From assembly GCA_018500005.2 (NCBI GenBank), contig JAHBAP020000519.1, positions 1-13,001 of the forward strand: a stretch of DNA of 13,001 nucleotides. Direction: 5' to 3'. Source of the DNA: Mycobacterium sp. GTDB taxonomy: Bacteria > Actinomycetota > Actinomycetes > Mycobacteriales > Mycobacteriaceae. Below, in pieces: positions 772 through 13,001 of this stretch. Below the pieces are notes generated by a model that worked only from the letters and a program-made list of their open reading frames with translations, did not search any database and was not told where the DNA came from. The number at the start of each line of letters is the position of its first letter. Within the stretch, counting starts at the first letter, position 1. A program made the translations under genes and the position numbers.

Positions 772-857
772 CGTTGAGCGAACCTTCCATGACGGGCCTC
801 AACCGGCAGTTCCAGCGGCAGGGGAGTTCGCCCGACGGCCCCCCAGCACGAGCATGA

Positions 858-1043: not shown

Positions 1044-1106
1044 CGGTTTGGTCTCCTACCTGTCGTTGCCGCTTACGATCCCTCCCATGCACCGGGGACC
1101 CCGCAG

Positions 1107-1976: not shown

Positions 1977-2053
1977 GATGCGTTGCGGTGGAGCGTCTTG
2001 CTGCCGTCGTCGTCTCATCGAAGGTTCGTTGGTAAGTACCGCCTGAGCGGCAT

Positions 2054-2137
2054 CTAGATGGCGTTCCTGGTGACGTTCGTCGCGGCGATGTTGATGGTTT
2101 CGCTGAACCATTTCCGGCCTTCTACGGTCACTGACAT
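2054..2137 (-). CDS. Very short overlapping frame, 27 aa
   Basis: This ATG lies inside the last codons of the 149-aa gene upstream on the same strand (overlap 2128-2137) and the frame runs to TAG at 2054-2056. The product, MSVTVEGRKWFSETINIAAT plus seven residues, has plausible composition, but it is too short to judge. It could be a coupled micro-protein, or the original in-frame end of the upstream gene displaced by a frameshift. No family is recognised. Confidence 0.2.
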   Translation of the reverse strand: MSVTVEGRKWFSETINIAATNVTRNAI

Positions 2138-2577
2138 TTCATCGGCGTGAATGCCTCAGGCAACACCTGTATGTCGACGTATCTCTCATCCGCATCACGG
2201 AGACAGAACGTCGCCCAAGGTTGCCCGGTGGGCGTGGATCTCATCTTCAGGAGGATCACATCGCCGGAGATACCTACCGTCGAGCCGTCGGGCAGGGACA
2301 GCATCGACTCGACCGGTACGAAGACGGCCCCAGTCGCGGCGGCCGCTTCGCGCATCGTCAGGTCGCGTTGATGTAAAACCCAGGCGAGGAGAAACACCGG
2401 ATCGAGTCCCAATTCGTGAGCGACGTATCCGCATGCCATTTTGGTCGAGGGCATCGACGGGATGCAGTCGTGAACCCGTGCGACGCCTTGATCGGCCGAA
2501 ACCGGCCAATCGGCTGGCCATTGCAGCGAACCTCGCACGCGTACCGAGCCGTCTCGCAGTTCGACAAAGGGTTCCAT
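2128..2577 (-). CDS. Hypothetical protein, 149 aa
   Basis: The ATG-started frame has coding-like composition, but I cannot assign a family. Visible parts are an N-terminal beta-like stretch (MEPFVELRDGSVRVRG), a central hydrophobic helix (LGLDPVFLLAWVLHQ) followed by LTMREAAAATGAVF, which resembles a helix-turn-helix-like pair of helices, and a C-terminal half of alternating hydrophobic strands (GDVILLKMRS, WATFCLRD, YVDIQVLPEAF). No signal peptide is present. It lies 39 nt downstream of the 74-aa gene on the same strand, so the two probably form one transcript reading away from the Clp N-domain gene. No good Shine-Dalgarno precedes the ATG, which could mean translation depends on the upstream gene or that the start is misplaced. 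Confidence 0.55.
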   Translation of the reverse strand: MEPFVELRDGSVRVRGSLQWPADWPVSADQGVARVHDCIPSMPSTKMACGYVAHELGLDPVFLLAWVLHQRDLTMREAAAATGAVFVPVESMLSLPDGSTVGISGDVILLKMRSTPTGQPWATFCLRDADERYVDIQVLPEAFTPMKCQ

Positions 2578-2616
2578 CAGGTCACTTTCGTTGGTCCGTG
2601 TTGCGGGACTACTCGG

Positions 2617-2841
2617 TCAGGGTTCGTGCTCCCAACCTGTTCTATTGAGTTGACGAGCAAGGCCGGCCCCGACGTTGGCCACGTTGTGGAGCCGCGCGAG
2701 TGAGTCCGACGGCCAGTGTCTGAGCGGCGGTAAGGTCAAGATGAAGTTGAGTATCGTGTCGCGCACCTCGCGATCAGGTGTGCGCTCGGCAATGGCAGCC
2801 AGTAACGCCTGGAGAGCCGCGTCGCCGGGGGTCGACAACAT
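2617..2841 (-). CDS. Small hypothetical protein, 74 aa
   Basis: The short ATG-started frame encodes a mostly helical protein: an N-terminal Ala/Leu helix (ALQALLAAIAERTPD), then VRDTILNFILTLPPL and LARLHNVANVGAGLARQL. No cysteine clusters, signal peptide or membrane helix is seen. It is the first gene of a two-gene minus-strand unit with the 149-aa frame. It is divergent from the Clp N-domain gene, with a 243-nt gap that should hold both promoters; I could not pick out convincing -10/-35 boxes there. The function is unknown, and the size and GC-rich context leave some chance that it is not translated. Confidence 0.45.
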   Translation of the reverse strand: MLSTPGDAALQALLAAIAERTPDREVRDTILNFILTLPPLRHWPSDSLARLHNVANVGAGLARQLNRTGWEHEP

Positions 2842-3084
2842 CGTCGGGATTCACAGGCGGCACCGTAGCCGTCGGCACCGACAGGTCTCTTGCGTGCATG
2901 CTCGCTCCCGCTCTCATGCGCTGGGTTTCGGCTGGGTCCGGCAATGGCGTCAGCGCCGGGGTTGGGCGAAGGGCTCATCAGGCCGGAGGGTCGACGGCAT
3001 TCATGGCGGCCGTTCGTTGTCGGTCCCGTGCCCTAGATTGCCGAATTCAAACGCAGCGTGTGGTTTCACGGACGGGGGTCTGAC

Positions 3085-3648
3085 GTGTGGCAGATGTATA
3101 CCGACGATGCGCGCCGGGTGAGGTCGGTTGCGCCGAGGCACGCCAAGCGGCTGCACCGCGACGCCGTCGGCATCGAGCATCTGTTACTCGCCCTCATCGA
3201 GTACGGCCGCGGTCCCGTTGAAGAGGCTTTCTTCGCCATCGGCATCACGCCCGGCGAGGTCGCGGCTCAGCTCGAATCGCGAGGAGAGAACGCCTGGGAC
3301 CCTACGGCCGGCGCAGAACCGATCGAGCTTCCCTACACGCCCGGCGCAAGTCACGCATTGGGACTGATCTTGGACGAGAAGCGTCGCCTCGGCCATGACT
3401 ACATCGGTTCTGAGCACATACTTCTGGCGGTGCTCCGACAGCTCGATAATGCGTGGGCCGAACCGGAACCGGCCAGTGAACTTCTCGAAAGACTCGGAGT
3501 GGATTTAGGAGGATTGCGCAAAGAACTTCTCTCCCGAATCCCGGCCGAATATGACCGACCGCTTTCAACGCAGACCGATACCATCCGTCGACTCGGAGTG
3601 TCTCCATTTATGGATTGGTTGGGTCCCGAGGTGACCGGCCAACAGTGA
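3085..3648 (+). CDS. Stand-alone double Clp N-domain protein (ClpC-type N-terminal repeats, no ATPase)
   Basis: The 187-aa product has two Clp N repeats. The first opens with MYTDDARRV and continues with the GIEHLLLALIEYG core. The second contains SHALGLILDEKRRLGHDYIG then SEHILLAVL, exactly the pattern of the ClpC/ClpA N-terminal domain. There are no Walker motifs, so this is not a chaperone ATPase. Such proteins may bind substrates or adaptors, or compete at the ClpC N-domain; here that is inference. I chose GTG at 3085 because it places MWQMYTDD at the position where ClpC starts (MFERFTD type) and a GGGGG run lies about 7 nt upstream. The GTG at 3058 would add nine residues with no homologous counterpart. 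Two tiny frames follow on the same strand. Confidence 0.85.
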   Translation: MWQMYTDDARRVRSVAPRHAKRLHRDAVGIEHLLLALIEYGRGPVEEAFFAIGITPGEVAAQLESRGENAWDPTAGAEPIELPYTPGASHALGLILDEKRRLGHDYIGSEHILLAVLRQLDNAWAEPEPASELLERLGVDLGGLRKELLSRIPAEYDRPLSTQTDTIRRLGVSPFMDWLGPEVTGQQ

Positions 3649-3692
3649 CTTGAAAAGATATTGTTGTCGGCACCTGGGAGCAGGATGGGGGC

Positions 3693-3851
3693 ATGGAGGC
3701 AGGCGAACACTGGCAGGCGTGGCTGGACCGTTACGGAGCCGATTACGACACCGGTGAGCAGCGTCGGGCGGCCTATCGCGATTTCAAGGCAAACCTCGCC
3801 CGCCTGACGGAGATGTTCTCTCGTGGCGACGAGGGCTCCCCAGCGACGTGA
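3693..3851 (+). CDS. Small hypothetical protein, 52 aa
   Basis: The ATG-started frame encodes a charged, probably all-helical protein: MEAGEHWQAWLDRYGADYD, then a GEQRRAAYRDFKANLARL helix ending in MFSRGDEGSPAT. The sequence GGGAGCAGG lies about 9-16 nt upstream and can serve as ribosome-binding site. It begins 44 nt after the Clp N-domain gene, so it is probably co-transcribed with it. Its stop overlaps the next short frame by GTGA. I do not recognise a family. The even charge distribution and aromatic spacing make it more convincing than a random frame. Confidence 0.45.
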   Translation: MEAGEHWQAWLDRYGADYDTGEQRRAAYRDFKANLARLTEMFSRGDEGSPAT

Positions 3852-3955
3852 TCTCGTTCGGAATGGAGAACCCCGTTCACCGGGCCGCGATCGACTGGCT
3901 CGCTGTTGATCCCGATGGAAACCGGATCACCCTCAAGCGTCGACGTCGCCGCTGA
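3848..3955 (+). CDS. Very short overlapping frame, 35 aa
   Basis: A GTG overlaps the TGA of the preceding 52-aa frame (GTGA) and opens a 35-codon frame whose product begins MISFGMENPVHRAAIDWLAV and ends in a run of arginines. The four-base overlap is the usual coupling arrangement in this window, which is the main argument for it. The product is too short for any family call and may equally be the tail of a decayed gene. Confidence 0.3.
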   Translation: MISFGMENPVHRAAIDWLAVDPDGNRITLKRRRRR

Positions 3956-4032
3956 ATCAGATCGCGAAGGGCCGGGGGTTGTTCGGCCTTCTTGTCGTCC
4001 CATGTCGGCGGGGCCTGCTACGTTGCGTGCGA

Positions 4033-4737
4033 ATGACAGGCGCGGGATCGGGGCATGGGTTGGCTGACTCACTGAGCTACACGGAATGGCGCCAGCGCTG
4101 GCCTGGGTTCATCGTCGCGAAGGACACCGAGACCGCGGTCGTCCACCTGGAGCGTTACTACGCGGAGCTCGGAGACGGCCAGCCCTGCTACACCGGGTCG
4201 CGCTTCGAGTCGGTGGCCGCGCTGAATACCGACCCCGACACGCTTGGCCCTGCGGACTTTGTGGCTGTGTCGATGCTCAGCGTCAAGGTTCGGGCGCAGG
4301 CGGCGCTGCGGCTTCTGAGCCGCGACGCTGCGGAGATCAGCCGCCTGCTCGCCCAGATTCCGGCTGACGTGGACATTGTCGACGCGGAGCCGACGTTGCT
4401 GCGGGGCGACTCCCCGGCCGGACAACTCTGGGCACTTCTGCGCGGGGGCCGCGACGGACTCGGCCGCACGACGACGAGCAAGCTGCTGGCCGTAAAACGT
4501 CCTCGGCTGCTGCCGATCTGGGACAGCTTCGTCGAAGAGGCCACCGGCTTGGACACCAACGGCAATTGGGAGAAGTTCCGGTACGTCTTGACCGACGACG
4601 ACCGCGCCGTGTGGGACTGGCTTAGCGGTTTGCGGGCGGAGGTGCCGGCGGTTCCTGCCATGGTCTCGGAGTTGCGGATTCTCGACGTTCTGCTGTGGAT
4701 GTCGGTGGAAGCCCCGCTGCCCGAGCCGCTCACCTGA
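4033..4737 (+). CDS. DUF6308 family protein
   Basis: The 234-aa product matches my memory of the actinobacterial DUF6308 family. It has an N-terminal YYAELGDGQPCYTGSRFE segment, then DFVAVSMLSVKVRAQAALRL, an acidic VDIVDAEP stretch, a GRTTTSKLLAVKRPRLLPIW block and a C-terminal LRILDVLLWM helix. The function of the family is unknown to me. The KLLAxKRPRLLPIWD region resembles a helix-hairpin-helix-like DNA-contact element, which is inference. I took ATG 4033 as start; a TTG at 3979 next to GGGGG would add 18 residues that look like non-conserved lead-in. The next gene, 49 nt downstream on the same strand, encodes a nuclease-fold-like protein, so the two may act together. Confidence 0.7.
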   Translation: MTGAGSGHGLADSLSYTEWRQRWPGFIVAKDTETAVVHLERYYAELGDGQPCYTGSRFESVAALNTDPDTLGPADFVAVSMLSVKVRAQAALRLLSRDAAEISRLLAQIPADVDIVDAEPTLLRGDSPAGQLWALLRGGRDGLGRTTTSKLLAVKRPRLLPIWDSFVEEATGLDTNGNWEKFRYVLTDDDRAVWDWLSGLRAEVPAVPAMVSELRILDVLLWMSVEAPLPEPLT

Positions 4738-4786
4738 TGAGCTGCCAACCAAAGACGTCCCACCCCCAAGCGATCAAGGCTCGGCG

Positions 4787-5392
4787 ATGACTCGCCTGAA
4801 CCAACAGGAGTTCTACGCCTGGGCGTACGGCGACCTGTTTACCAACACCACCCGCGGAGTGCTTGCTGAGTACATCGTGGCCGCAGCGCTCGGCCTTCAC
4901 GAGACGAAGCGCGTGGCGTGGAACCAATACGACCTCGAGATCGACGGTGCCGAGATCGACGGCGCCGAGACTGACCGTGTCGGAATAGAGGTGAAATCGG
5001 CTGCTTACGTGCAGTCGTGGGAGCAAACGCGGAGTTCAAAGATCGTGTTCAGCGTCCGCCGCGCGCAGGGCTGGGACGAGCGCACCAACACCCGTTCGGA
5101 CAGTGCGACGCGAAGCGCCAAGGTGTACGTCTTCTGCCTGCTCGAGGGGAAGGACAAAGACAGCATCGACCCGCTCGACACCGCGCACTGGACGTTTTAT
5201 GTGCTGCCCACCAGCCAGCTCGACCGACACGTTTCGACCCACAAGACGATTGGGCTCAATCGGCTGGAAGAGATCGGTGCCCGCCCGCGCAAATACGGCG
5301 AGCTGAAGGCCGCCATTGATGAGGCGGCAGCGTTTAGACCGGAGGATGATTCGCTGCCCGCCTCGCCGGAACCCAATCCAATGGCTGAGTGA
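4787..5392 (+). CDS. PD-(D/E)XK-like protein of unknown role
   Basis: The product is 201 aa. Residues 19-30 (TNTTRGVLAEYI) form a helix with a conserved-looking Glu28. Then come WNQYDLEIDG with Asp49 and GIEVKSAAYVQSWEQ with Glu68-Val-Lys70. The order Glu, Asp, then Glu-x-Lys on a beta strand is the arrangement of PD-(D/E)XK nucleases. A later segment (RSAKVYVFCLLEG, WTFYVLPTSQL) fits the remaining core strands. I recognise close relatives only as uncharacterised actinobacterial proteins. A 15-bp in-frame tandem duplication (4937-4951 and 4952-4966, giving IDGAEIDGAE) lies between Asp49 and Glu68 and may lengthen the loop next to the active site. It follows the DUF6308 gene by 49 nt. The substrate, DNA or otherwise, cannot be read from sequence. 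Confidence 0.65.
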   Translation: MTRLNQQEFYAWAYGDLFTNTTRGVLAEYIVAAALGLHETKRVAWNQYDLEIDGAEIDGAETDRVGIEVKSAAYVQSWEQTRSSKIVFSVRRAQGWDERTNTRSDSATRSAKVYVFCLLEGKDKDSIDPLDTAHWTFYVLPTSQLDRHVSTHKTIGLNRLEEIGARPRKYGELKAAIDEAAAFRPEDDSLPASPEPNPMAE

Positions 5393-5411
5393 AAGCGCTG
5401 TAGCCGCCTTG

Positions 5412-5871
5412 CTAGTTGCGGACCCAGACTCCGCCGCCGCAGATGACCGGGATGCCGTCGGGTGTCTGGGCTGCGAGTTCGAATCCCTCGGTGCACGACG
5501 ATCCCAGCGGCCGCGTCCCGATCACCGGGATTGAGCGAATCCACGTTCCTGCGCTGCCCTGTCCGGTGCATAAGAGAGTGTCACCGTGCGGCGGTCTGCC
5601 CGAAGACGAACCGCTGGGTGTTTGTGCAGGGCTGACCCAGGACGGCACCGCTCACCAGACCCGGGACGTCGTTGGACAGGCCGGTCATCGGCGTCGGGCA
5701 TTGGCCGGTCGTGGCTCCGATGGAGTTGATCTCGGCGTTGGAGCGGGGATCGCCGGAGTAGTCGAGTTGGTCGGTGCATCTCGTCGCTTGAGCCGGTGCC
5801 GACAAGAGTAGTGTCCCCGATCCGAGAGCCGCCCCCGTCAGCACGACTGAGATTGCAGTCCGTGTCCGCAT
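5412..5871 (-). pseudogene. Secreted Cys-containing protein, split by a one-base frameshift
   Basis: The gene begins with a clear signal peptide (MRTRTAISVVLTGAALGSG, then hydrophobic Leu-Leu-Leu, cleavage after APAQA). It continues as a mature secreted protein with Cys residues until TGA at 5581-5583 (96 codons). The downstream sequence in a second frame continues the same kind of protein without a break: GDTLLCTGQGSAGTW, then VIGTRPLGSSCTEGFE and PDGIPVICGGGVWVRN, ending in TAG at 5412-5414. Dropping one base near 5586 would join TNTQRFVFGQTAA directly to GDTLLC and give about 152 aa, the size of small secreted mycobacterial proteins with paired cysteines. It could be a true pseudogene or a base-call error. 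There is no slippery heptamer that would suggest programmed frameshifting. The family is otherwise unknown to me. Confidence 0.65.
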
Positions 5872-6005
5872 GGGCTCAATCTTGGCAAACGATGTTTCGG
5901 TGCAGTCGGGTTCTAACGAATCAGCAGCGTTTCCTTTCCTTCATTCTTTCAGTCGTGGCTACTCTCATACCTCCCGCGAGTCACTGAATAGCGTGAACTG
6001 CCCCG

Positions 6006-6022
6006 GGCTGCCAGTGGCAGCC
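6006..6022 (-). terminator. GC-rich hairpin after the integrase gene
   Basis: GGCTGCC and GGCAGCC form a perfect 7-bp stem with a 3-nt loop. The hairpin lies 16 nt beyond the integrase stop codon and upstream of the secreted-protein gene. No T-run follows on the minus strand, which is common for actinobacterial terminators, so termination is a guess from position and stem strength. Confidence 0.4.
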
Positions 6023-6037
6023 AGCCTTCCTCGACGG

Positions 6038-7144
6038 TCATTGGCTGTCCTCTCCGATCAGCTCACTGACTATGCCGTACAGGGGATTTCGGGCGGCGGC
6101 GGAGCGGGTCTCGGAGCCGGCCGCGGACACGTAACGCTGCGAGGTCGCCATCGACTCGTGGCCCAGCAGCTTCATCAGGGTGTAGACGCTGACGTCAGTT
6201 TCGGCGAGCTCAGTCGCATAGGTATGGCGCAGGCCGTGCACGAGGGCTCCCGGTACCGGCTGCGCGTCGGGGCCGGCGCGGTGGAAAGCCCGCTTGATAC
6301 GGGACTGCAGGGTGCCGCGGGTGATGCGGTCGCCGTCGCGGCCGACGAAGAGAGGGGAGTGGGCCGGCCACAGCGCCAAGCCCGAGGATCCGGCGGCACG
6401 CCGGGCGGTGCTGGGGAAGCGGGCAGCACGGCTGTCGAGGTAGCGCTCGATGACCGCGACGAGCTCGGCCTCGATCGGCACGGTGCGGTCTTTGCCTCCC
6501 TTACCGCGGACGTGAATCACGCCGGCGCCTTCGGTGGCGCGGCGGATGTCGCCGACATCGGCCTGGCGCAGCTCGTCGGCCCGAAGCCCGGCCAGCAGGC
6601 TCGTGAGGATAAGGGCGAGGTCGCGCTCGGGCCAGTTGGTACGGCGAGTGGAGCCCTCGTCGGAGCGCACGGTCTCCAGGAGTGCTTCCACGGCGGGGCG
6701 GGGGAGCGCCTTGGGGATCGACTTGGTCAGCTTCGGCCGGCCGACCAGCGGCATGGGGTTCGCGGCCAGCTCCTCACCGGTGTAGAGGAAGGTGCACAGG
6801 ACGTTCCAGGTTGACCAGCAGCGGCGGATCGACGCGGCCTCGTGGTCAGCGGCGTACGCGGCGAACGCCGCACGCATCGAATCGCGCGTTATGTCAGCTA
6901 TGTCGAGCGAGGCTGGGCGGCCGTCGGTGATCAGCGACGCGATGGCTACGAAGTCCTGCTGGTAGGCCTTCATGGTGTGCGCCGACGGCTTGCGCGTCTG
7001 GCGGTCGGCGAGGAATCGGGCGAACCATTGCGGGTACGGCGGCGGCTCGGGGGCCTGGACATCGGCGGCGGAAAAGCCGGGGGGGGTTTGATTGGTGATG
7101 CTCCGACAGTGATCGCCAAACGATGGATAATCACGCTTATCCAT
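6038..7144 (-). CDS. Tyrosine recombinase / phage-type integrase
   Basis: The 368-aa product has a full set of tyrosine recombinase residues. A core-binding domain (about 38-125) carries the usual SAM-like pattern (WFARFLADR, SAHTMKAYQQDF). The catalytic domain shows Arg188 in LLAGLRADELR, Lys215/Lys218 in HVRGKGGKDR, His303 and Arg306 in HGLRHTYATELA, His329 in LLGHESM and Tyr338 in SQRYVS. Length and order are normal and there is no sign of decay. It catalyses site-specific strand exchange and would integrate or excise an element, or resolve dimers. No Shine-Dalgarno precedes the ATG; the message may be leaderless, or an internal start may be used. A 7-bp inverted repeat overlaps the first codons. 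I did not find att repeats in this window, so its target site is unknown. Confidence 0.95.
   Translation of the reverse strand: MDKRDYPSFGDHCRSITNQTPPGFSAADVQAPEPPPYPQWFARFLADRQTRKPSAHTMKAYQQDFVAIASLITDGRPASLDIADITRDSMRAAFAAYAADHEAASIRRCWSTWNVLCTFLYTGEELAANPMPLVGRPKLTKSIPKALPRPAVEALLETVRSDEGSTRRTNWPERDLALILTSLLAGLRADELRQADVGDIRRATEGAGVIHVRGKGGKDRTVPIEAELVAVIERYLDSRAARFPSTARRAAGSSGLALWPAHSPLFVGRDGDRITRGTLQSRIKRAFHRAGPDAQPVPGALVHGLRHTYATELAETDVSVYTLMKLLGHESMATSQRYVSAAGSETRSAAARNPLYGIVSELIGEDSQ
7124..7143. promoter_or_regulatory. Inverted repeat over the integrase start
   Basis: TGGATAA and TTATCCA are perfect 7-bp arms separated by 6 nt, falling on the first seven codons of the integrase. A symmetric site at this place could be an operator or a recombinase arm/core site. 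It could also be chance, since only 14 bases are constrained. Confidence 0.3.
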
Positions 7145-7499
7145 TTAATGTCGGGGTTTCGTTGCCGGACTGAGTCGGTCGCGCGAGATGACCGTGACGC
7201 GCGGGGTCCGGTGCGTCCATCCGCGCTGGCGCGGCCGCGTAGCGGTTCGACGCAAGCGTTTGCACGCAGACGTTTCGGGGCATCGCCAACGGGACTTAGC
7301 GACCGACGCCGTCAGGGCTCCGCAGCTGGCCCGCCGATGCCGACGCGGGCCCCGGCCGGTTCGGCCTACACGTGAAGGACCCCCGGGGCGGGCGTTAAAG
7401 CGTCACTGTGACGAAAACAGCGCAACGGCTGGTTGGGTCGGCCGGTCGTCGACGAGGGTGAAGTCGCCCCTTCGAGGAGTGCGTCTTCTTCCAGCCTGC
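7145..7499. other. Intergenic region upstream of the integrase, no gene seen
   Basis: This 355-nt stretch has no convincing reading frame on either strand. Its only structured feature is the 13-bp palindrome CGTCACTGTGACG at 7401-7413 (6-bp arms around one base), a size and shape suitable for a dimeric repressor. It is a reasonable place for the integrase promoter and an attachment site, but I see no tRNA gene and no repeat of its sequence elsewhere in the window. Confidence 0.4.
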
Positions 7500-7700
7500 C
7501 TAGCGGCGCGGGCCGCCCATCGGAAACTCTGAGAACCAGGTAGGCAAGACCATCTTGCGCTCCTGGCCACGCAGGGCGCTGGTGGGGACATGGCTCTTGG
7601 TGCAGGAGCGCGCCTTGCGCTCTTCGCGCGTCTTGCACTCAGTGCAAAGGTTCTCGTCCCATCCCGGCCGGGCTGGTTTGTCGCGCTTCTTCTTGGTCAC
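7500..7700 (-). CDS. Small basic Cys-containing protein, 66 aa
   Basis: The protein begins MTKKKRDKPARPGWDENLCT and has Cys19, Cys22 and Cys33 followed by a His (CTECKTREERKARSCTKSH), which could form a small zinc knuckle, then RKMVLPTWFSEFPMGG. The start is GTG at 7698-7700. A strong Shine-Dalgarno, GAGGGGG, sits 8 nt upstream on this strand, which is the main reason to accept the gene. The N-terminus is strongly basic, so nucleic-acid binding is possible but unproven. It is transcribed in the direction of the integrase, 355 nt away, and divergently from the small plus-strand genes starting at 8011. I know no named family for it. Confidence 0.6.
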   Translation of the reverse strand: MTKKKRDKPARPGWDENLCTECKTREERKARSCTKSHVPTSALRGQERKMVLPTWFSEFPMGGPRR

Positions 7701-7799
7701 GATTGAAGCCCCCTCGTTGTGCCGCGCCGCGTTCGCGTATCAGGCGCTGATCCGTTGAACATGCCGACGGGCGATCCACATTTGGGAACCGTACGTGAA

Positions 7800-8015
7800 C
7801 TAGAAAGTCGGCACTATCATGCCTTCCACCACGGTATAGCCGTCTTCCACGACTTGTCCGTTCAGGAACGGAAGTAGGGCGTTTTTCACGGAATCCCAAT
7901 GCGGTGACCACAGCTCCGACCAAGGCGGGTGGTCGTAAGAACTGGAGCCGAGGCTTACGTTCGGTTCAACTAAAGTGCGCCGCCGCCGGTTGGATCGGAG
8001 AACAAGCCGAGTGTC
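7800..8015 (-). pseudogene. 3' remnant of an unidentified gene
   Basis: On the minus strand a 72-codon open frame ends at TAG (7800-7802) with convincing protein sequence: SYDHPPWSELWSPHWDSV, then KNALLPFLNGQVVEDGYTVV and EGMIVPTF. There is no ATG, GTG or TTG in frame before a stop at 8016-8018, so it has no start. It looks like the C-terminal 50-60 residues of a gene cut off where the plus-strand gene at 8011 begins. The interval 7701-7799 holds nothing else I can support beyond the Shine-Dalgarno of the 66-aa gene. The family is not recognised. Confidence 0.35.
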
Positions 8016-8139
8016 TCAAAAGCCCTGTCTGAGTACTGACGTCATACGCCATGCCATTGAGCCCCGTGTCCGCGAGATGGGCGGTGACGCCGCTGCCGTG
8101 GATGCGATTGCGCTGGATGCCGCATGGGCGATGGTCTGA
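8011..8139 (+). CDS. Small hypothetical protein, 42 aa
   Basis: A GTG start with GGAG 10 nt upstream (7997-8000) opens a 42-codon frame: MSQKPCLSTDVIRHAIEP, then RVREMGGDAAAVDAIALD and AAWAMV. Composition and third-position GC are coding-like and the C-terminal half would form an Ala-rich helix. It is the first of three same-strand small genes (8011, 8185, 8457). The function is unknown. Its start falls at the edge of the minus-strand remnant, which marks a likely rearrangement point. Confidence 0.45.
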   Translation: MSQKPCLSTDVIRHAIEPRVREMGGDAAAVDAIALDAAWAMV

Positions 8140-8184
8140 TGGTCTGCTTCTTTTCCGCCAACCCTGCTCACCCGCCGTTGCGTG

Positions 8185-8478
8185 ATGACCGATAACGTTC
8201 TGGATTTCGACAGCGGATTCCGGCGGCGGGCTCTGTTGTGGGAGCGGGTTGTTGCACTCCGGCCAGAACCGGACGATCCGCATTTCCGTTTGGCGCGAAT
8301 CGTTTTCGCCACGCTTCTCGGCGCCCACGGAGCGCGAATGGTCACTGGCGCCCTCGGGGCCTGTCGGATAACCGACTCCGCCCGGCTCAGCCATGTCACC
8401 GGCTTGCCCCCGCCGCATGGATCAAGGCGCCGGCCAGTTTCCGACAGGGAGCTGCTGTGGTCGCACCGTGGCCGGTGA
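8185..8478 (+). CDS. Hypothetical protein, 97 aa
   Basis: The frame begins ATG (a GTG lies one codon earlier) and encodes MTDNVLDFDSGFRRRALLWE, then RVVALRPEPDDPHFRLARIV and a hydrophobic FATLLGAHGARMVTGAL helix. The C-terminus is basic (GSRRRPVSDRELLWSHRGR). No clear Shine-Dalgarno is visible; translation may be coupled to the gene before it. The end overlaps the next gene, whose better start lies inside it (GTG 8457, 22-base overlap) and whose alternative start makes a GTGA overlap at 8475. I see no known domain. The last 25 residues might only exist because of the overlap. Confidence 0.45.
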   Translation: MTDNVLDFDSGFRRRALLWERVVALRPEPDDPHFRLARIVFATLLGAHGARMVTGALGACRITDSARLSHVTGLPPPHGSRRRPVSDRELLWSHRGR

Positions 8479-8780
8479 GTCTTGAAATCGTTTCCGCGGC
8501 GGCCGCGCTGCGCTCAGGTCGATTGCAGGCACTGGTAGGCCGTGAGACCGGTGCTCACCACCTGTGTTGTTTGCACGGCAACGCCGGCCTCATTCCTGAC
8601 GGAGAGCCACGACGCTACTGCTGCAAGTGCGAATACGGGCTGCGCAAAGGCCCCGCTCTCGAGCACGATACGTCCTTCTACTGCTACCACTGCCACACCG
8701 AGCATCCAGGCTCGCGCGCACTTGACGGCTGTCCGAAGTGGTGGCAACACCCGCCGAACGTGGATCGTCCCGGCCGGTAA
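8457..8780 (+). CDS. Cys/His-rich, probably zinc-binding small protein, 107 aa
   Basis: After a short helical N-terminus (VSLEIVSAAAALRSG) the protein has many metal-ligand-like residues: HHLCCLHG, RRYCCKCEYG, SFYCYHCHTEH and a final DGCPKWW. The Cys-Cys-x-Cys and Cys-x-x-Cys-x pattern over about 65 residues suggests one or two zinc ribbons, so nucleic-acid or protein binding is plausible but inferred. GTG 8457 has an excellent Shine-Dalgarno, AGGGAG, 5 nt upstream (8446-8451). GTG 8475, which overlaps the stop of the previous gene by GTGA, would give a product six residues shorter and cannot be excluded. Element copy A starts only a few bases after the stop codon. I do not recognise a named family. 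Confidence 0.6.
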   Translation: MVAPWPVSLEIVSAAAALRSGRLQALVGRETGAHHLCCLHGNAGLIPDGEPRRYCCKCEYGLRKGPALEHDTSFYCYHCHTEHPGSRALDGCPKWWQHPPNVDRPGR

Positions 8781-8785
8781 TCGGA

Positions 8786-9043
8786 AACGCCTTCGGCGTT
8801 GCTCATGTTTGGCCGCCACGCCCCTATGGGTCTGGCGGCTTCGTTGTCGGAGGCCTTTCTGGCTTCCGAGTGTGGCCGGCGGGCCGCTCCACGCAAGGCC
8901 CGGTCCCTGCGGGCCGGGAGAACTTTTCCGAGCCGCTCGCTTCGCTCTCTGAAAACTTCTCCCTGCCGAACCTTGCGCTACGACGGCCCTCATACCGGCC
9001 CACTTCGTCATTGCCAGAGAGGCCAAAAGAACTGGCGGCCAGA
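8786..9043 (+). repeat. Structured intergenic element, copy A
   Basis: This is one of two diverged direct copies (the other at 11540-11766). The best-aligned core is 8852-9040, about four-fifths identical by eye, with single-base indels that would shift any reading frame. From 5' to 3' it shows a perfect AACGCC/GGCGTT hairpin (8786-8800), a GCCGCCA/TGGCGGC hairpin (8812-8839), a GGCCCG/CGGGCC hairpin (8897-8915), and directly abutting it a 13-bp hairpin (8916-8928 with 8951-8963, one C.C mismatch) carrying a 22-nt loop. It sits after the Cys/His-rich gene and ends about 35 nt before a TGT-like reading frame. It could be a cis-acting RNA leader, a 3' UTR element or a mobile palindromic repeat. 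Confidence 0.8.
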
Positions 9044-9078
9044 TGAAGTCGCCAAGCTACCGGAGGGCGCGGAGAGCA

Positions 9079-9222
9079 ATGGACATTTCTTATATGGGCA
9101 CCCACCAGGTGGATCATCTCGCTCGCGCAGGAGTGCCGTTGTTTGTCTCGCATCGCCGGCTCGCCGGCCGGAAGAGCTTGCCGCGGGCGATCGCCGAGTA
9201 CGCGGTGGACTCCGGGGCCTGA
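9079..9222 (+). pseudogene. N-terminal fragment of a TGT/DpdA-like protein (7-deazaguanine insertion family)
   Basis: The 47-aa frame MDISYMGTHQVDHLARAGVP, LFVSHRRLAGRKSLPRA, IAEYAVDSGA closely resembles the N-terminus of actinobacterial and phage proteins related to queuine tRNA-ribosyltransferase and DpdA. In those, LFVSHRRLxGRKxLPRA is followed by a DSGGF-type active-site strand. Here the frame stops (TGA) right after DSGA and the following DNA is AT-rich and non-homologous, so about 85% of the protein is missing. The start is convincing: GGAGAG stands just upstream and GGAGG a little further. Full-length relatives exchange guanine for a 7-deazaguanine in tRNA or DNA; this stump cannot. 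The family call rests on recalled motifs, not on a search. Confidence 0.6.
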
Positions 9223-9544
9223 GGTAATGACAATGGAACTGATTTCCGCCCTTTCCTTGGACGCGCATATGGACCTTTTGCGATCGCGACATATCCCCTC
9301 CCTTCGCGCCATTTCAGCGTCGGTATTTGGAGGCGCACAAAATCACGAAGATGAAGGATTTTCGTGCACGGAACGCACGGTCGCGATGGTGCGATCAGTG
9401 CAGGAAGAGGCCCGTGATAAGTGCGTGTGGAAATAGCGGAGAAAAATGTTCAAAAAAAGTTCGCTATAGGTGTCGCTATAATTCGCGGCTCCCTCTAAAA
9501 TTAATTCTATTCGGCATACCGCCACCATTCGAGGAGAATGTGAA
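9223..9544. other. AT-rich spacer with hairpin, upstream of the nrdH-like operon
   Basis: Base composition drops sharply compared with the flanks, suggesting DNA of different origin or a regulatory spacer. An inverted repeat, GCACAAAATC (9335-9344) and GATTTTCGTGC (9357-9367, one bulge), has a 12-nt loop. The second half holds a direct repeat TCGCTATA and a TATAAT box. A low-confidence Cys-rich frame also crosses it. Confidence 0.5.
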
Positions 9545-9548
9545 ATGA
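9351..9548 (+). CDS. Possible Cys-rich small protein overlapping the nrdH start, 65 aa
   Basis: An AT-rich frame encodes MKDFRARNARSRWCDQCRKR, PVISACGNSGEKCSKKV, RYRCRYNS and a hydrophobic tail. Four of its cysteines are spaced like a small zinc ribbon (CDQC, then ACG, then KCS). Its TGA overlaps the ATG of the NrdH-like gene by ATGA, the coupling seen elsewhere in the window. Against it: no ribosome-binding site at a proper distance from the ATG (GGAGG is 18-22 nt upstream), codon use unlike its neighbours, and a TATAAT box inside the frame that better explains the region as a promoter. It could be a remnant captured with the AT-rich segment. Confidence 0.3.
   Translation: MKDFRARNARSRWCDQCRKRPVISACGNSGEKCSKKVRYRCRYNSRLPLKLILFGIPPPFEENVK
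9461..9482 (+). promoter_or_regulatory. Promoter candidate of the NrdH-DnaB_N-protease operon
   Basis: A perfect -10 consensus TATAAT is at 9477-9482. The sequence TCGCTATA occurs twice (9461-9468 and 9473-9480), so the -10 is half of a 12-nt-spaced direct repeat that could be a regulator site. No good -35 is found at 16-18 nt. The transcript would have a leader of about 55 nt ending in the GAGGAG ribosome-binding site (9531-9536). Confidence 0.45.
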
Positions 9549-9772
9549 CCACCGTCACGGTTTATATAAAACCGGCCTGTGTGCAATGCGAAGCCACCAC
9601 GCGGGCGCTAAGGAAATTGGGTATCGAATTCACCACGATCGACATCAGCATCGACGAACAGGCCCGCGACTACATCATGTCCCTCGGCCACCTCCAGGCC
9701 CCCGTCGTCGTCACCGCCACCGATTCCTGGTCCGGGTTCCGCCCCGACCGGATCAGCCGGCTCGCCGCCTAA
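9545..9772 (+). CDS. nrdH: NrdH-like glutaredoxin (redoxin)
   Basis: The 75-aa product is a complete small thioredoxin-fold protein: VTVYIKPACVQCEATTRALR with the Cys-Val-Gln-Cys active site (Cys13, Cys16), then LGIEFTTIDIS, a HLQAPVVV strand with the cis-Pro and the closing WSGFRPDRIS motif typical of NrdH. NrdH is reduced by thioredoxin reductase and supplies electrons to class Ib ribonucleotide reductase. No nrdE/F/I genes are present here, so this copy probably works as an extra redoxin of the element or its host. Shine-Dalgarno GAGGAG lies 8 nt before the ATG. It is the first solid gene of a plus-strand operon running to 11522, which includes a DnaB-like N-domain protein, so supplying dNTPs for replication of an element is a possible, unproven link. 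Confidence 0.88.
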   Translation: MTTVTVYIKPACVQCEATTRALRKLGIEFTTIDISIDEQARDYIMSLGHLQAPVVVTATDSWSGFRPDRISRLAA

Positions 9773-9797
9773 GCCCGACAAACGAGAGGACACCACC

Positions 9798-10085
9798 ATG
9801 AACGTGACGAACCTGTTAGACCAACTCCACGATCCCTACGCCGACCACGACGACGAATTGACCGCCAAGCGGTCCGAACTGCTCACCCATCTCACCTATG
9901 GAATCCGCGTGATGGAACACGCCGCCGAACTCCTCGACGATCTCCGCAGCGGAGCTGCAGAGGACGTCGAGCTCGTCGAGGGACGCGACGGAAGGGATTG
10001 TGCGGCCCACCTCGACGCCGCCGTGCGAACCGCCCGCGCTGCCTACGCCGTTCTGCACGTCGTCTTCGAGAAAGAGCGCCCGTAA
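9798..10085 (+). CDS. Hypothetical acidic helical protein, 95 aa
   Basis: The second gene of the operon, 25 nt after the NrdH-like gene, has a good ribosome-binding site (GAGAGGA, 7 nt before the ATG). The sequence is almost wholly helical and acidic: MNVTNLLDQLHDPYADHDDE, KRSELLTHLTYGIRVMEHAA, ELLDDLRSG, and a second long helix AHLDAAVRTARAAYAVLHVV. There are no cysteines, signal peptide or membrane segment. Its TAA shares one base with the ATG of the next gene (TAATG), so the two are translationally coupled. No family is recognised; a helical-bundle adaptor is the most one can say. Confidence 0.72.
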   Translation: MNVTNLLDQLHDPYADHDDELTAKRSELLTHLTYGIRVMEHAAELLDDLRSGAAEDVELVEGRDGRDCAAHLDAAVRTARAAYAVLHVVFEKERP

Positions 10086-10711
10086 TGAGCTCTGCAGCAG
10101 CCCGTTTGGAGGTACTGCCCGGCGGACGATCCGACACCGAGCCGACCGGCGACACCGACTGGCTCACCGCCTCCCCCGGCGCCGCCAATGACGCGCAGGC
10201 CTCCCCCTGGGACCCCGAGCATCAACTCGTCGGCTCGTTAATGTGGCTGCCGGCCCCGACCGTGTGCCGCATCGTCGCCACGGTCCCCGCGGCCGCCATC
10301 GAGCGCCCCATCACCCGGTGGGCCTACGAAATCATCGCCGCCATCGCCAACGACGGACACAAGCCCGATCCCGTCCTGGTCCTGGCCACGGCCCGACGCC
10401 ACCCCTGCAGCATCGCCGCGGACCCCACCGCAGCTCCCAGTGCCACGCGCCACCACCAACTGTCGGTCTACCTGGCCCGGGCCTACACCGAGACCGTCTC
10501 CCCCGACAACGCAGGCAGCTACGCCCGCGAGGTCCTCGACAACGCCTACCGGCGGGCGTTCACCGCGGCCGGCCTCCGCATGCAGGCTCTCGGCGACAGC
10601 GGTGCAGAACGAGCCGACCTGACCGAGCAGTTCGCCGCCGTGCGCGAGGAACTACTCGACTGGTGGCGCCGCGCCGAGACCGCCGCACAACCAGGGTGGG
10701 CAGAGCGGTGA
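10085..10711 (+). CDS. DnaB N-terminal-domain-like protein (no helicase domain)
   Basis: The product is 208 aa. After a variable 45-residue lead it shows EHQLVGSLMWLPAPTVCRIV, then a helix ending in ITRWAYEIIAAIANDGHKPD and PVLVLATARRH. This is the shape of the DnaB helicase N-terminal domain (E-x-A-V-L-G-A-L-L, hydrophobic helix, then D-P-x-x-V). The C-terminal half is helical with a closing LLDWWRRAETA. There is no Walker A, so it is not a helicase; it may bind primase or a DnaB-type partner, or regulate replication of an element. The domain call is moderately sure because identity is low. The start ATG is at 10085 in TAATGA; earlier in-frame starts would lie inside the previous gene. The stop overlaps the next gene's GTG (GTGA). 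Confidence 0.62.
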   Translation: MSSAAARLEVLPGGRSDTEPTGDTDWLTASPGAANDAQASPWDPEHQLVGSLMWLPAPTVCRIVATVPAAAIERPITRWAYEIIAAIANDGHKPDPVLVLATARRHPCSIAADPTAAPSATRHHQLSVYLARAYTETVSPDNAGSYAREVLDNAYRRAFTAAGLRMQALGDSGAERADLTEQFAAVREELLDWWRRAETAAQPGWAER

Positions 10712-10878
10712 GCCGTCCCGACCCGCGCGAGGCCGCAGTCATCGGATACGCCGCACGGCAGTTGGCCGGGCATCGGTTCAACCGCCCAGGCAGCGCCCCG
10801 GCCACCGCGGCCCGCCTCATCGACGAGATGCGCCACCGTAATCTGCTCAAAGCCGAACGGGCACTGTGCCGCTCATGA
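10708..10878 (+). CDS. Small basic hypothetical protein, 56 aa
   Basis: A GTG overlapping the stop of the DnaB_N-like gene (GTGA) opens a 56-codon frame whose stop in turn overlaps the ATG of the protease gene (ATGA). The product is basic and helical: MSRPDPREAAVIGYAARQLA, GHRFNRPGSAPATAARLIDE, MRHRNLLKAERALCRS. Overlaps at both ends are the strongest evidence that it is translated. The Arg/His content would fit nucleic-acid binding, but no motif is recognised. It is too small to search by eye with confidence. Confidence 0.6.
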   Translation: MSRPDPREAAVIGYAARQLAGHRFNRPGSAPATAARLIDEMRHRNLLKAERALCRS

Positions 10879-11522
10879 ACCGCCAGCCTCTGTGGATCGC
10901 CGTTCTCGCGGCAGCACTTGCCGTCGCCGCATCCCCGCCGGCGGCCCAGGCCGCCGCCACATCGGTCAGCGCAGGCGACCGCATCCACGTCGGCACCGCG
11001 ATATGCAGCCTTGCCTACGCCTATCGCAGCACCACCAACGGCCACACCTACGCCATCACCGCGGCGCACTGCCAACAACCAGGATCGACAACAGCCCGCA
11101 CCGACACCGGCGCGACCGGAACCTTCACCCGTGCCGCCCTGGACCCCGCGGGTAGCGGCGGGACCGACTTCGCCCTGCTGGACTTTGGAACGACCACCAG
11201 CCCCGGCCGCTCTGTCGGCGACCGGCCGCTGCTCTATGGCCTCAACCGGCCTGCGGCCGGTGAGACGGTCTGCCGCAGTGCGGCGACCACCGGCACCCAC
11301 TGCGGCACCGTCCAATCAGCACGGGGGCCAATGCAATACGTAACCGCACCGGATATGCCCCCCTGCGCCGGCGGCGACTCCGGCGGCGCGGTGTGGGTCA
11401 ACCGCAACGGCGGCGCCCAGATCGTCGGCGTCTGGCTGGGCGGTGTGCGGATGCCCGATGGCAACGACCTCGGCCGCTTCGCCGTCCTTGCCGACGGCTT
11501 CACCGCCCTCGGACTTGCCTAA
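10875..11522 (+). CDS. Secreted trypsin-like serine protease (S1 family)
   Basis: The 215-aa product has a signal peptide (residues 1-27, hydrophobic core IAVLAAALAVAA, Ala-x-Ala end) and a compact chymotrypsin fold. The catalytic His65 is in TAAHC, Asp98 in GGTDFALLDF and Ser169 in GGDSGGAVW, all in the expected order. Cysteines 44/66 and 133/143 look like disulphide pairs; Cys164 is just before the catalytic Gly-Gly-Asp-Ser. It should act outside the cytoplasm, on an unknown target. The chosen ATG overlaps the stop of the 56-aa gene (ATGA); a GTG three codons earlier would only add MPL. A secreted protease as the last cistron of an operon with a redoxin and a DnaB_N-like protein is unusual. 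Length is short for S1 but complete. Confidence 0.88.
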   Translation: MNRQPLWIAVLAAALAVAASPPAAQAAATSVSAGDRIHVGTAICSLAYAYRSTTNGHTYAITAAHCQQPGSTTARTDTGATGTFTRAALDPAGSGGTDFALLDFGTTTSPGRSVGDRPLLYGLNRPAAGETVCRSAATTGTHCGTVQSARGPMQYVTAPDMPPCAGGDSGGAVWVNRNGGAQIVGVWLGGVRMPDGNDLGRFAVLADGFTALGLA

Positions 11523-11539
11523 TCGCGGGCTGTATCGAC

Positions 11540-11553
11540 GGCCCTGACGGGCC
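11540..11553 (+). terminator. Hairpin after the protease gene, 5' part of element copy B
   Basis: GGCCC and GGGCC form a 5-bp stem with a TGAC loop, 18 nt after the protease stop. There is no T-run. The equivalent hairpin in copy A (8786-8800) has a different sequence but the same place after a stop codon, and both are followed by CTCAT, so it may end the upstream transcript or be part of the element. Confidence 0.35.
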
Positions 11554-11766
11554 GACTCATCTTCCCTACGGGGGTGGCCTTTCTGGCCCTCCGAGTGTGG
11601 ACCGGCGGCCCGATCGCGCAAGGCCCGGTCCCGTGCGGGCCGGAAAACCTTTCCTAGCCGCTCGCTTCGCTCACTGAAAGCTTTTCCTGCCGAGCCTTGC
11701 CGCTGACCGGGCCTTCAGGCCGGTCCCACTTCTCCCCTGCCAGACAGGCCACCGGAACGGGCGGCC
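11540..11766 (+). repeat. Structured intergenic element, copy B
   Basis: This is the second copy of the element seen at 8786-9043, in the same orientation; the best-aligned core is 11576-11766. It keeps CCC-TAC-GGG in the 5' part, the GGCCCG/CGGGCC hairpin (11622-11641) and the abutting long hairpin (11642-11653 with 11676-11687). That stem is 12 positions long with the same central C.C mismatch and a 22-nt loop that contains the same 17-base sequence as copy A (AGCCGCTCGCTTCGCTC). Two stem pairs differ from copy A by compensatory change (G-C to A-T, T-A to C-G). A further hairpin, ACCGG with CCGGT, is near 11706-11724. The element ends 17 nt before the PP-loop gene start, right at its Shine-Dalgarno AGGAGG (11773-11778). 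Confidence 0.8.
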
Positions 11767-11783
11767 CAATGCAGGAGGACGAA

Positions 11784-12986
11784 ATGACCAACCAGCTTCC
11801 ACTGTTCGCCGGGGAACAAATCGCGGCACCCAAAATGTGCTTGAGCTACGGGATGGGAGCCGACTCGACAGCACTGTTGCTGCGGTGGATCACCGAGCCG
11901 GCCACCCGCGACTTCGACCTCGACGAACTGATCGTCCTGACCGCGATGACCGGCTCCGAATGGGAATCCACCCTGCGTGACGTCGAAGAAGTCGTCCTGC
12001 CGTTGCTCGCGGCCCACGGAATCCGCTTCATCCAGGTCGGTCGCAGCCGCCGCAACGTCACCAAAAACGGCGACGGCGTCGTCATCCTCGATGACTCCCG
12101 CACCCCCACGCGGCTGTACGGCCGCGGCGACTACACCCTCGCCGATGAACTGCTCACCGCTGCCACGGTGCCGCAGCTCGGGGGGGTCAGGAAGTGTTCA
12201 ATCAAGTCCAAAGGCAGCGTGCTGCAGCCGATCATCGACCGCCTCACCGCGGGCCAGCCCTACCGGCACGCCCTGGGCTTCGAGGTTGATGAGATGAGCC
12301 GCTGCCGCAAGGACAGCCTCTACAACTCCGAAACCCGTACGGGGACCTACCCTTTGGCTGAGTGGGGTTGGGACCGTCCCAAGATCCTGGAGTTCATCAA
12401 GACCGCGACCGGCCGGGACTGGTTCAGGTCAGCATGCTCATTCTGTCCCTTCGCTCTGGCGAGCGAAAAAAGCCGGAGCGCAACGCTTCCGCGATTCCAG
12501 TCCGAGCCCGCAGCCGCCTTTGAAGCACTCACGATCGAGGCCACCAGCCTGGCGGTCAACGAGCGCCAGGGCCTGCTCGGCGCGAAGCGCCTGTCGGACC
12601 TCATGACCGACGCGGGAATGGGTGAGATCGTCGCCGAAGCCGACCGCCGTCGCGGTGAGATGCCGCACGCCATCTTCGAGGTCCGCCGCATCGTGCCGGC
12701 CAAAGCCGGCGACCCGACCAAATCCGGACCGGTGTGGCGCAGCATCGTGCGCCGCGCCACCGGCGACCGCCGCGCCATGACCGCCGCACTGCAGGCCATG
12801 CCCGGTCGGCCGGTCGCCGAATCGTCGGGCATCACCAGGATGGTGCTGCGCAGCCGCGAAGATCACCCGGGCTTCCCGCAGCTCGAGCACTACTACGTCG
12901 TGGCGCCGGCCGTGGTCGAGGACAAGGCCCGACCCGGGTTCGACGCGGCCTGGCGCGAAGCCACCGAATCCCAGCAGCTGTTCTGA
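11784..12986 (+). CDS. PP-loop ATPase, PAPS-reductase-like (adenine nucleotide alpha-hydrolase fold)
   Basis: The 400-aa product begins MTNQLPLFAG and has a PP-loop SYGMGADSTALLLRW (Ser21 to Ser28, a variant of SGGxDS) in the first strand-loop-helix. It continues with an ELIVLTAMTGSEW segment, a KCSIKSKGSVLQPI block around Cys138, an acidic/basic GFEVDEMSRCRKDSLYN and ACSFCPFAL with Cys218 and Cys221. These are the marks of phage and plasmid phosphoadenosine-phosphosulfate-reductase-like proteins, which adenylate or hydrolyse a substrate with ATP; the substrate is unknown here. DndC and some nucleobase-modifying enzymes share the fold. The C-terminal 140 residues are an extra domain I do not recognise. 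ATG 11784 is preceded by AGGAGG at 5 nt. An earlier in-frame start at 11697 falls inside the repeat element and is not used. Confidence 0.82.
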   Translation: MTNQLPLFAGEQIAAPKMCLSYGMGADSTALLLRWITEPATRDFDLDELIVLTAMTGSEWESTLRDVEEVVLPLLAAHGIRFIQVGRSRRNVTKNGDGVVILDDSRTPTRLYGRGDYTLADELLTAATVPQLGGVRKCSIKSKGSVLQPIIDRLTAGQPYRHALGFEVDEMSRCRKDSLYNSETRTGTYPLAEWGWDRPKILEFIKTATGRDWFRSACSFCPFALASEKSRSATLPRFQSEPAAAFEALTIEATSLAVNERQGLLGAKRLSDLMTDAGMGEIVAEADRRRGEMPHAIFEVRRIVPAKAGDPTKSGPVWRSIVRRATGDRRAMTAALQAMPGRPVAESSGITRMVLRSREDHPGFPQLEHYYVVAPAVVEDKARPGFDAAWREATESQQLF

Positions 12987-13001
12987 AAACTCGGCGTGGC
13001 C

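Follow-up and report, generated by a model that had tools for sequence, protein, structure and literature searches.

Two plasmids, F and ColIb-P9, are named as carrying experimentally shown single-stranded DNA promoters (PMC9849209, PMC8708921), and in F both Frpo1 and Frpo2 are described as required for early expression of the genes behind them (PMC9849209). The element considered here occurs in two copies, A and B, in a stretch of 13,001 nucleotides (nt) from Mycobacterium sp. (assembly GCA_018500005.2, contig JAHBAP020000519.1, positions 1 to 13,001), the whole of which is called the window below. Each copy is probably a single-stranded-DNA promoter of an actinobacterial family that works in the manner of Frpo without significant sequence kinship to it. 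Like Frpo1 and Frpo2, the mycobacterial element is a long imperfect hairpin that is present in more than one copy, and its apparent placement in a leading region with genes that run towards the origin of transfer (oriT) also recalls F.

Two other groups of described elements invite comparison. The Frpo-like candidates linked to anti-defence islands are, as here, predicted hairpins with -35 and -10 boxes ahead of leading genes, but, unlike the present family, they were picked out for resembling Frpo and the E. coli consensus boxes, and the main text of that study has no word beginning with "actino" and no DUF932 (PMC11541004). In the pLS20 family of Bacillus, EGeRS1 is a conserved hairpin region repeated before establishment operons of a Gram-positive conjugative plasmid, a further likeness (PMC8708921). 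Compared by description only, EGeRS1 differs in its length of 400-600 bp, in the lack of a promoter in the fold and in a transferred strand that is the non-template, whereas the present element has boxes and its transferred strand would be the template; the EGeRS1 authors judge a single-stranded promoter highly unlikely because of that missing fold promoter and the non-template transferred strand (PMC8708921). Open-access literature, with preprints and most subscription papers outside the scope of the search, yielded no single-stranded promoters in actinobacteria.

Two copies of a single long hairpin

Copy A (8849-9048) and copy B (11573-11774) are 81% identical (blastn against the genome itself, E 3.8e-41), which agrees with a preliminary description of this DNA as holding two diverged copies at about four-fifths identity. 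That description had begun copy A at 8786; positions 8786-8848 are far less similar, and clear likeness begins at about 8849. A repeat search delimits an ungapped core of 98 nt at 79% identity (8865-8962 and 11590-11687). Neither blastn nor the covariance model R1 described below finds a third copy in the assembly (625 contigs, 72% complete). Several finer features that had been pointed out were confirmed by reading the sequence, including the C.C mismatch in the stem of the main hairpin, the double changes from G-C to A-T and from T-A to C-G, and the side hairpin GGCCCG/CGGGCC (8897-8902/8910-8915 and 11622-11627/11636-11641). The loop stretch said to be common to both copies was recovered as well, its core GCCGCTCGCTTCGCTC being present twice where 0.04 occurrences are expected. 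Both copies do come after the stop of an open reading frame (8778-8780 for A, 11520-11522 for B) and before gene starts, that of a 400-aa gene for B and, for A, that of a 47-aa DpdA remnant followed by nrdH (Table 1). The absence of a described family also holds: a search of the window against Rfam at E up to 1 is empty, as is one of three related plasmid stretches (L036-L038) at gathering thresholds.

What had not been seen is that each whole copy forms a single imperfect hairpin of about 175-180 nt, with the side hairpin near its top. Folded as gene-strand RNA, copies A and B reach z values of -5.0 and -3.6, equalled by 0 and 1 of 200 shuffles; folded as opposite-strand DNA they reach -4.81 and -4.79, equalled by 0 of 200 shuffles each.

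A plasmid family with strong covariation

Relatives of the element reside on plasmids of Mycobacteriales. With copy A as blastn query 73 plasmid records come up at E up to 0.1, and with a Rhodococcus copy 135 (Rhodococcus 88, Prescottella 26, Mycobacterium 13, Nocardia 3, Mycolicibacterium 3, Gordonia 1 and Candidatus 1), of which 112 are typed as conjugative or mobilizable. Copy B matches 29 of 396 genomes of the genus, its own included and some by short pieces only, and under stricter filters an order-wide sample gives 3 of 121 genomes, again with its own among them. A search of phages with copy B gave no match, and among viral contigs there are two core-pattern matches, neither of which passes R1 at 1e-6. 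Model R1, built from 30 copies under 95% identity, matches 20 of 20 sequence sets, all preselected for having matches. A core-pattern fetch returned 95 stretches (93 genome contigs and 2 viral), 59 of which carry 98 R1 matches of at least 56 bits; by record title the hosts are Mycobacterium, Mycolicibacterium, Rhodococcus, Rhodococcoides, Williamsia, Skermania, Nocardia and metagenome-assembled genomes labelled Mycobacteriaceae or Actinomycetota. Two copies also stand on a contig labelled Kitasatospora arboriphila, of the Streptomycetales (L097), which would mean either a wider host range or a misplaced contig.

Because indels in the stems misalign, plain MAFFT with RNAalifold on 30 copies yielded only 12 pairs and was discarded. 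The structure used was derived from single-sequence pair probabilities on both strands without G.U and then from covariance-model alignment, with columns kept where at least 60% of rows are Watson-Crick, a filter that the controls with slid partners do not have. R1 matches under 40 bits were dropped, namely rows 60-73 of the first alignment, which are antisense shadows of the nearly symmetric hairpin, and rows 99-107 of the second (six shadows and three weak non-shadow matches, in L101, L092 and L128). Thinning at 95% left 47 of 59 rows, 46 of the 47 with at least 150 nt, and kept 41 of the 98 fetched matches as independent new copies. Both partners have changed in 47 of the 75 pairs; covariation scores 0.186, compared with 0.098 for shuffled and at most 0.10 for slid alignments. 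A tree of the 47 rows holds 133 Watson-Crick pair-to-pair changes against 12-16 with the partner slid, and the 41 independent copies give 121 against 9-23; removal of the column filter raises the two counts to 158 and 158. The covariance-model search has in this way returned many further copies with strong covariation, in keeping with the earlier view that selection on structure maintains the element.

Strand preference of the fold

Were gene-strand RNA the working form, G.U should be tolerated as an intermediate. Counts from folds computed without G.U depend on the energy table and were set aside in favor of tree-based events. On the gene strand the 47-row and 41-copy sets show 23 and 22 changes that produce G.T, against 57 and 51 that produce A.C, which is G.T on the other strand; in the slid controls the ratios of A.C to G.T are 165:114 and 223:164, and without the column filter they are 81:33 and 74:40. 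Fisher's test of the asymmetry gives p 0.03 for each set and 0.003 for both combined, values that serve as a guide only, the rows being related. G.U is thus the rarer intermediate, which does not favor RNA of the gene strand. Measured against dinucleotide shuffles of each strand, the minus strand, opposite the genes, folds the better of the two in 41 of 46 copies under DNA parameters (mean z -4.6, plus strand -3.6) and in 35 of 46 under RNA parameters. From stem changes and folding energy together, the favored strand seems to be the one opposite the genes, which is presumed to be transferred.

These data bear on the reading closest to the preliminary description, in which the element is a structured 5' leader RNA of the gene strand that serves plasmid genes as a riboswitch, an attenuator or a control of translation. 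Such a leader would suit the same-strand start that lies close downstream in 15 of 20 copies, and the RNA of the gene strand folds well, as the z values of -5.0 and -3.6 attest. G.U is however not a favored intermediate, the minus strand folds better relative to shuffles, the invariant -35 and -10 bases described below are on the other strand, and ahead of each of the seven type-2 elements of pMK12478 (see below) stands a terminator-like hairpin, so that a leader there would require a promoter inside or after it. A leader RNA is therefore unlikely. The parts of the preliminary description that survive are structural selection, a cis-acting element before gene starts and the lack of an Rfam family; RNA of the gene strand as the working form, be it leader, riboswitch or 3' untranslated region, is disfavored by the rarity of G.U, the folding bias between strands and the boxes on the opposite strand.

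Promoter-like boxes in the far arm

On the minus strand the hairpin reconstitutes boxes that resemble -35 and -10 hexamers. The far arm reads TTGnnn-N15-19-nAnnnT in 42 of 46 full copies, and a strict form of the boxes occurs there in 31 of 46 against 0.4 in shuffles and in 0 of 46 gene-proximal arms. Among the 41 new copies the boxes are present in 37 and in the other arm of 1, and 13 new copies from outside the fetch pattern have them in 10 cases where shuffles give 0.75. Across the 47 rows, which were gathered without the box pattern, only A2 and T6 of the minus-strand -10 region never vary (46 of 46 rows that have a letter there), position 3 varies freely, and the three bases of the -35 TTG are kept in 45, 46 and 47 rows. 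We take A2 and T6 to be the equivalents of -11A and -7T, the bases read by sigma. Minus-strand folds of single box-bearing copies leave -11A without a partner in 36 of 42 and 32 of 37 cases, and -7T in only 2 and 2; in both window copies -11A is a one-base bulge. An internal loop lies between the -10 box and the outer stem, at the position expected of a transcription bubble.

A conventional promoter was sought in the gene-proximal arm, and none turned up. TANNNT is found in 0 of 16 copies within 130 nt ahead of the start codon, where 7.2 are expected (16 of 22 annotated or window copies were scanned, spacings above 41 nt and one of 0 being omitted). A consensus promoter scan of 8600-12000 found none, a result that says little because just 0.3 were expected. 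In duplex DNA the minus-strand boxes do read upstream, as they would in an ordinary double-strand promoter firing away from the gene. The upstream neighbor nevertheless lies on the gene strand in 13 of 20 annotated copies and at both window copies, and a promoter of this kind leaves the covarying partner arm and the unpaired -11A unexplained; it is highly improbable as the function of the element.

Position ahead of genes of leading-region type

In annotated plasmids 20 of 20 main matches precede a gene on the same strand, with 0-41 nt between the end of the model, about 18 columns past its last pair, and the annotated start in 15 of the 20. A purine-rich stretch resembling a ribosome-binding site follows the elements. 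The genes directly behind them include ParB-like, DUF932, DUF4192 and nrdH genes; ssb adjoins the first element in both Nocardia plasmids, and a toprim-domain gene is present in the same regions. A TrwC relaxase shares a contig with the element in 13 of 20 sequence sets. It is encoded on the strand of the element in all 13 and, in 12 of them, about 10-57 kb downstream of the nearest copy (one of these distances runs past a contig end, the contig being treated as circular). Other contigs carry the relaxase in 4 of the 20 sets, and none was found in the remaining 3 of 20.

Two further functions may be weighed against this setting. One is a single-strand initiation site that primes synthesis of the complementary strand, with gene expression a secondary matter. 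Frpo was reportedly described by Masai and Arai in 1997, to judge from the title, for primer RNA as well as transcription, and the toprim-domain gene of these regions would fit; but a location just ahead of start codons in 15 of 20 copies suits a promoter and is unneeded for priming, and the gaps of type 2, each holding a single element and a terminator-like hairpin of its own, likewise fit a promoter, which makes a priming site very unlikely. The other is a recombination site or inserted repeat, attC-like or REP-like, folded as a single strand and moving genes. The attC sites of integron cassettes are folded single strands with extrahelical bases, gene and element occur in arrays, and integrase genes lie near some copies and in the window (6038-7144). 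Against it stand the single orientation towards starts with a ribosome-binding-like purine-rich stretch behind, the promoter boxes, and the retention of the element with related genes at 46-64% protein identity. The present element differs from attC in preceding a gene and bearing promoter boxes, and it is on location and boxes, with no dedicated attC test, that both the attC and the inserted-repeat reading were put aside; of the alternatives this seems the most remote.

The order of genes towards the relaxase is DUF932, two opposite-strand genes and mobF in both pRAW of M. marinum and the M. chimaera plasmid. Just ahead of mobF we noticed by eye a conserved block, CACACCTC[TA]TGCACT[CA]A, in two mycobacterial and two Rhodococcus plasmids (L058 6510-6774, L035 33197-33459, L056 24739-25110 and L057 22694-22940). 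The block carries an inverted repeat in the Rhodococcus plasmids and is a candidate oriT/nic. Known oriT sequences are described as lacking in the plasmids of PMC8190616, and PMC7105574 reports use of the oriT region of pRAW. On the R. gordoniae plasmid erm(46) is annotated upstream of the elements (L056 14911-15723).

Comparison with F and EGeRS1

The F plasmid has the order ssb, ParB-like gene, psiB, small gene, DUF932, opposite-strand gene and traM. We take oriT to lie before traM, and its position and the names ygeA and ygeB, as matched to the F sequence, are in part our assumption. DUF932 and ParB-like genes stand in the leading region of F in the same orientation as behind the mycobacterial elements, and about 20 nt separate the end of the Frpo1 and Frpo2 repeats from the gene start, which the present elements also approach closely. 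DUF932 is a leading-region gene common across phyla: it is the last gene before the oriT side in F (L061 14439-15260) and comes before mobF in the M. chimaera plasmid (L035 30690-31736) and pRAW (L058 4000-5046). By analogy the elements would lie in the leading region, and because the layout resembles that of F, the template strand of the genes, which is the minus strand of the window, would be the one transferred (the T-strand).

The folding preference also has a counterpart in F, where the T-strand of full-length Frpo1 and Frpo2 shows folding advantages of 13.9 and 8.9 kcal/mol against 1.8 and 1.1 in shuffles. The unit shared by the two is at least 522 nt long, compared with about 180 nt here. 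With filters off, R1 run on F 50000-68000 gave a best match of 14.3 bits (E 0.005) that lies outside both Frpo units. Inside the Frpo units R1 scores 10.8 and 10.6 bits on the minus strand (E 0.035 and 0.04; L061 8213-8279 and 13602-13668), scores that are not significant among 34 such matches. The element is not filed in the Frpo sequence family because there is no significant kinship with Frpo of F.

EGeRS1 offers a different precedent, that of an establishment-gene regulator of unspecified mechanism acting from the gene strand or from duplex DNA. Conserved inverted-repeat regions of 400-600 bp precede several Bacillus establishment operons, and a single-stranded promoter is considered highly unlikely there by the authors, as cited above (PMC8708921). 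In the present fold, by comparison, the box pair is visible, and the genes are laid out towards a MOBF relaxase as in F. We regard an EGeRS1-like regulator as improbable.

A second hairpin family

Many leading genes of pMK12478, the M. chimaera plasmid and pMSPYR101 are preceded by a longer hairpin, here called type 2, in gaps of about 340-540 nt (regions in Table 1). Type 2 was found at 233 places in 39 plasmid records, pRAW among them, and arrays of gene and element occur. In pMK12478 each of seven type-2 gaps from 31531 on has a terminator-like hairpin with a T-run ahead of the element; the stretch has 15 terminator-like hairpins against 6.3 expected, and all 8 on the gene strand fall in type-2 gaps. 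With a terminator in each gap, each gene looks like its own unit, with a start within or after the element. A filter on length and motif retained 20 of 28 gaps listed in the three plasmids. In 19 of these 20 type-2 copies it is the minus strand whose fold improves more on its shuffles, and boxes are present in 12, all with a 19-nt spacer, which is wider than usual. Ahead of the window copies no clear terminators were found, the count of 2 being matched by 2.0 expected.

Genes of the window

The features of the two copies and the genes around them are collected in Table 1. Relatives of nrdH, the 95-aa gene, the DnaB-N-like gene and the trypsin-like gene stand in the matching regions of one or more of three plasmids (pMSPYR101, pMK12478 and that of M. 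chimaera). In pMSPYR101 and the M. chimaera plasmid an annotated nrdH likewise comes after an element, and relatives of the window nrdH (61-64% identical) lie about 230 nt past an element in 7 of 9 cases among the matches listed (L073, L076, L093, L118, L127, L146 and L154). A relative of the 400-aa gene, 46% identical, comes straight after the pMSPYR101 element (L037 18564-19706; element 18271-18498, annotated gene 18498-19709). Since relatives of nrdH and of the 400-aa gene follow elements elsewhere too, the elements have stayed with the same genes. The motif SYGMGADST of the 400-aa gene is presumably PP-loop/PAPS-reductase-like. A tyrosine recombinase on the minus strand of the window (6038-7144) is 62% identical to one at L036 18292-19287, upstream of the first element of pMK12478. 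The contig of the window has no relaxase; one is present on another contig of the same genome.

Table 1. Positions of the hairpins, their parts and neighboring genes (window coordinates unless a plasmid stretch is named)
Feature	Position	Strand	Remarks
Copy A, whole hairpin	8852-9024	- (taken as folding strand, the putative transferred strand)	R1 142.8 bits at 8842-9050
Copy A, -10-like hexamer CACACT	8869-8874	-	bulged -11A at 8873 (T on +), unpaired in fold
Copy A, -35-like hexamer TTGCGT	8891-8896	-	16 nt from -10
Copy A, side hairpin GGCCCG/CGGGCC	8897-8915		by reading
Copy A, apical hairpin with conserved loop	8916-8963		main hairpin of the preliminary description
Copy A, outer stem, gene-proximal side	9013-9024		putative transcription start just before this stem
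Copy B, whole hairpin	11573-11754	- (taken as folding strand)	R1 123.6 bits at 11566-11776
Copy B, -10-like hexamer CACACT	11594-11599	-	bulged -11A at 11598, unpaired in fold
Copy B, -35-like hexamer TTGCGC	11616-11621	-	16 nt from -10
Copy B, side hairpin GGCCCG/CGGGCC	11622-11641		by reading
Copy B, apical hairpin with conserved loop	11642-11687		
47-aa remnant, DpdA family (DNA deazapurine modification)	9079-9222	+	PF23859 E 1.5e-10, profile 5-48 of 291
nrdH, glutaredoxin-like	9545-9772	+	PF00462 E 1.1e-13; next intact gene past copy A
95-aa gene	9798-10085	+	relatives in L035 (M. chimaera plasmid) and L036 (pMK12478)
208-aa gene	10085-10711	+	DnaB N-terminal match below threshold; relative at L037 (pMSPYR101) 24890-25480
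Gene with sub-threshold trypsin match	10875-11522	+	relatives in L035, L036 and L037
400-aa gene past copy B	11784-12986	+	no Pfam family; motif SYGMGADST by eye
Type-2 region, pMK12478	L036 31531-40197		
Type-2 region, M. chimaera plasmid	L035 24912-30690		
Type-2 region, pMSPYR101	L037 26432-39737		

Discussion

The family, its covariation, its strand asymmetry, its setting ahead of genes and its boxes are observations from many copies, and they fit a promoter that would form once the minus strand is present as a single strand. In conjugation the leading region of the T-strand should reach the recipient first, and there the strand would fold into the long imperfect hairpin. The far arm would then act as the non-template strand, offering TTGnnn-N16-nAnnnT, and the gene-adjacent arm as the template, with -11A bulged out and the internal loop at the site of the transcription bubble. 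The RNA polymerase of the host would begin transcription close to the hairpin base, about 45-60 nt ahead of the start codon, so that the leading gene may be transcribed before synthesis of the complementary strand. Because the boxes point away from the gene in duplex DNA, the gene would presumably be off in that state. The identity of the transferred strand, the use of the hairpin by the polymerase, the start site and the timing of expression are thus predictions of this scheme.

Several observations weigh against a single-stranded promoter. Both oriT and the transferred strand are placed from layout, by analogy with F, and an F control trimmed to 323 nt has no clear strand bias. The box pattern is absent from the corresponding arm of F's Frpo, which means that F either has a different exact layout or is missed by too strict a pattern. 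The hairpin-rich establishment elements of pLS20 are described as lying on the wrong strand for a single-stranded promoter (PMC8708921). The boxes were first noticed after looking, for which reason they were tested on the 41 unused copies; the first base of the -10 box is mostly C, not T; and in duplex DNA the boxes could be those of an ordinary promoter directed upstream. The Fisher values are optimistic because the copies are related. Spacing to the gene is longer in 5 of 20 cases (73, 82, 229, 411 and 591 nt), and pWB1 is an exception in having its relaxase on the same strand but far away. Two Nocardia plasmids in addition carry weaker, shorter, reversed relatives (62-64 bits; L034 28106-28273 and L038 21434-21600), which point against the neighboring genes.

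A broader proposal, towards which we lean slightly, is that plasmids of Mycobacteriales have at least two families of promoters, types 1 and 2, that function only in single strands and occur in arrays with a promoter for each gene, joined in type 2 by a terminator for each gene. In such promoters the fold would present a nearly open state: -11A would bulge out, an internal loop would cover the start site, and only folding of the transferred strand would turn the boxes towards the gene. On this proposal mycobacteria and their kin would run a whole program of early expression from the incoming single strand.

If plasmids of mycobacteria, rhodococci, nocardiae and Williamsia do share a separate family of such promoters, expression from the incoming strand would have arisen repeatedly or be far more general. 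The element would also give a sequence model, with an unpaired -11A and an invariant -7T, on which to test how RNA polymerase opens a hairpin promoter, and it would mark leading-region genes and candidate anti-defence genes in a phylum where such regions have been little mapped.

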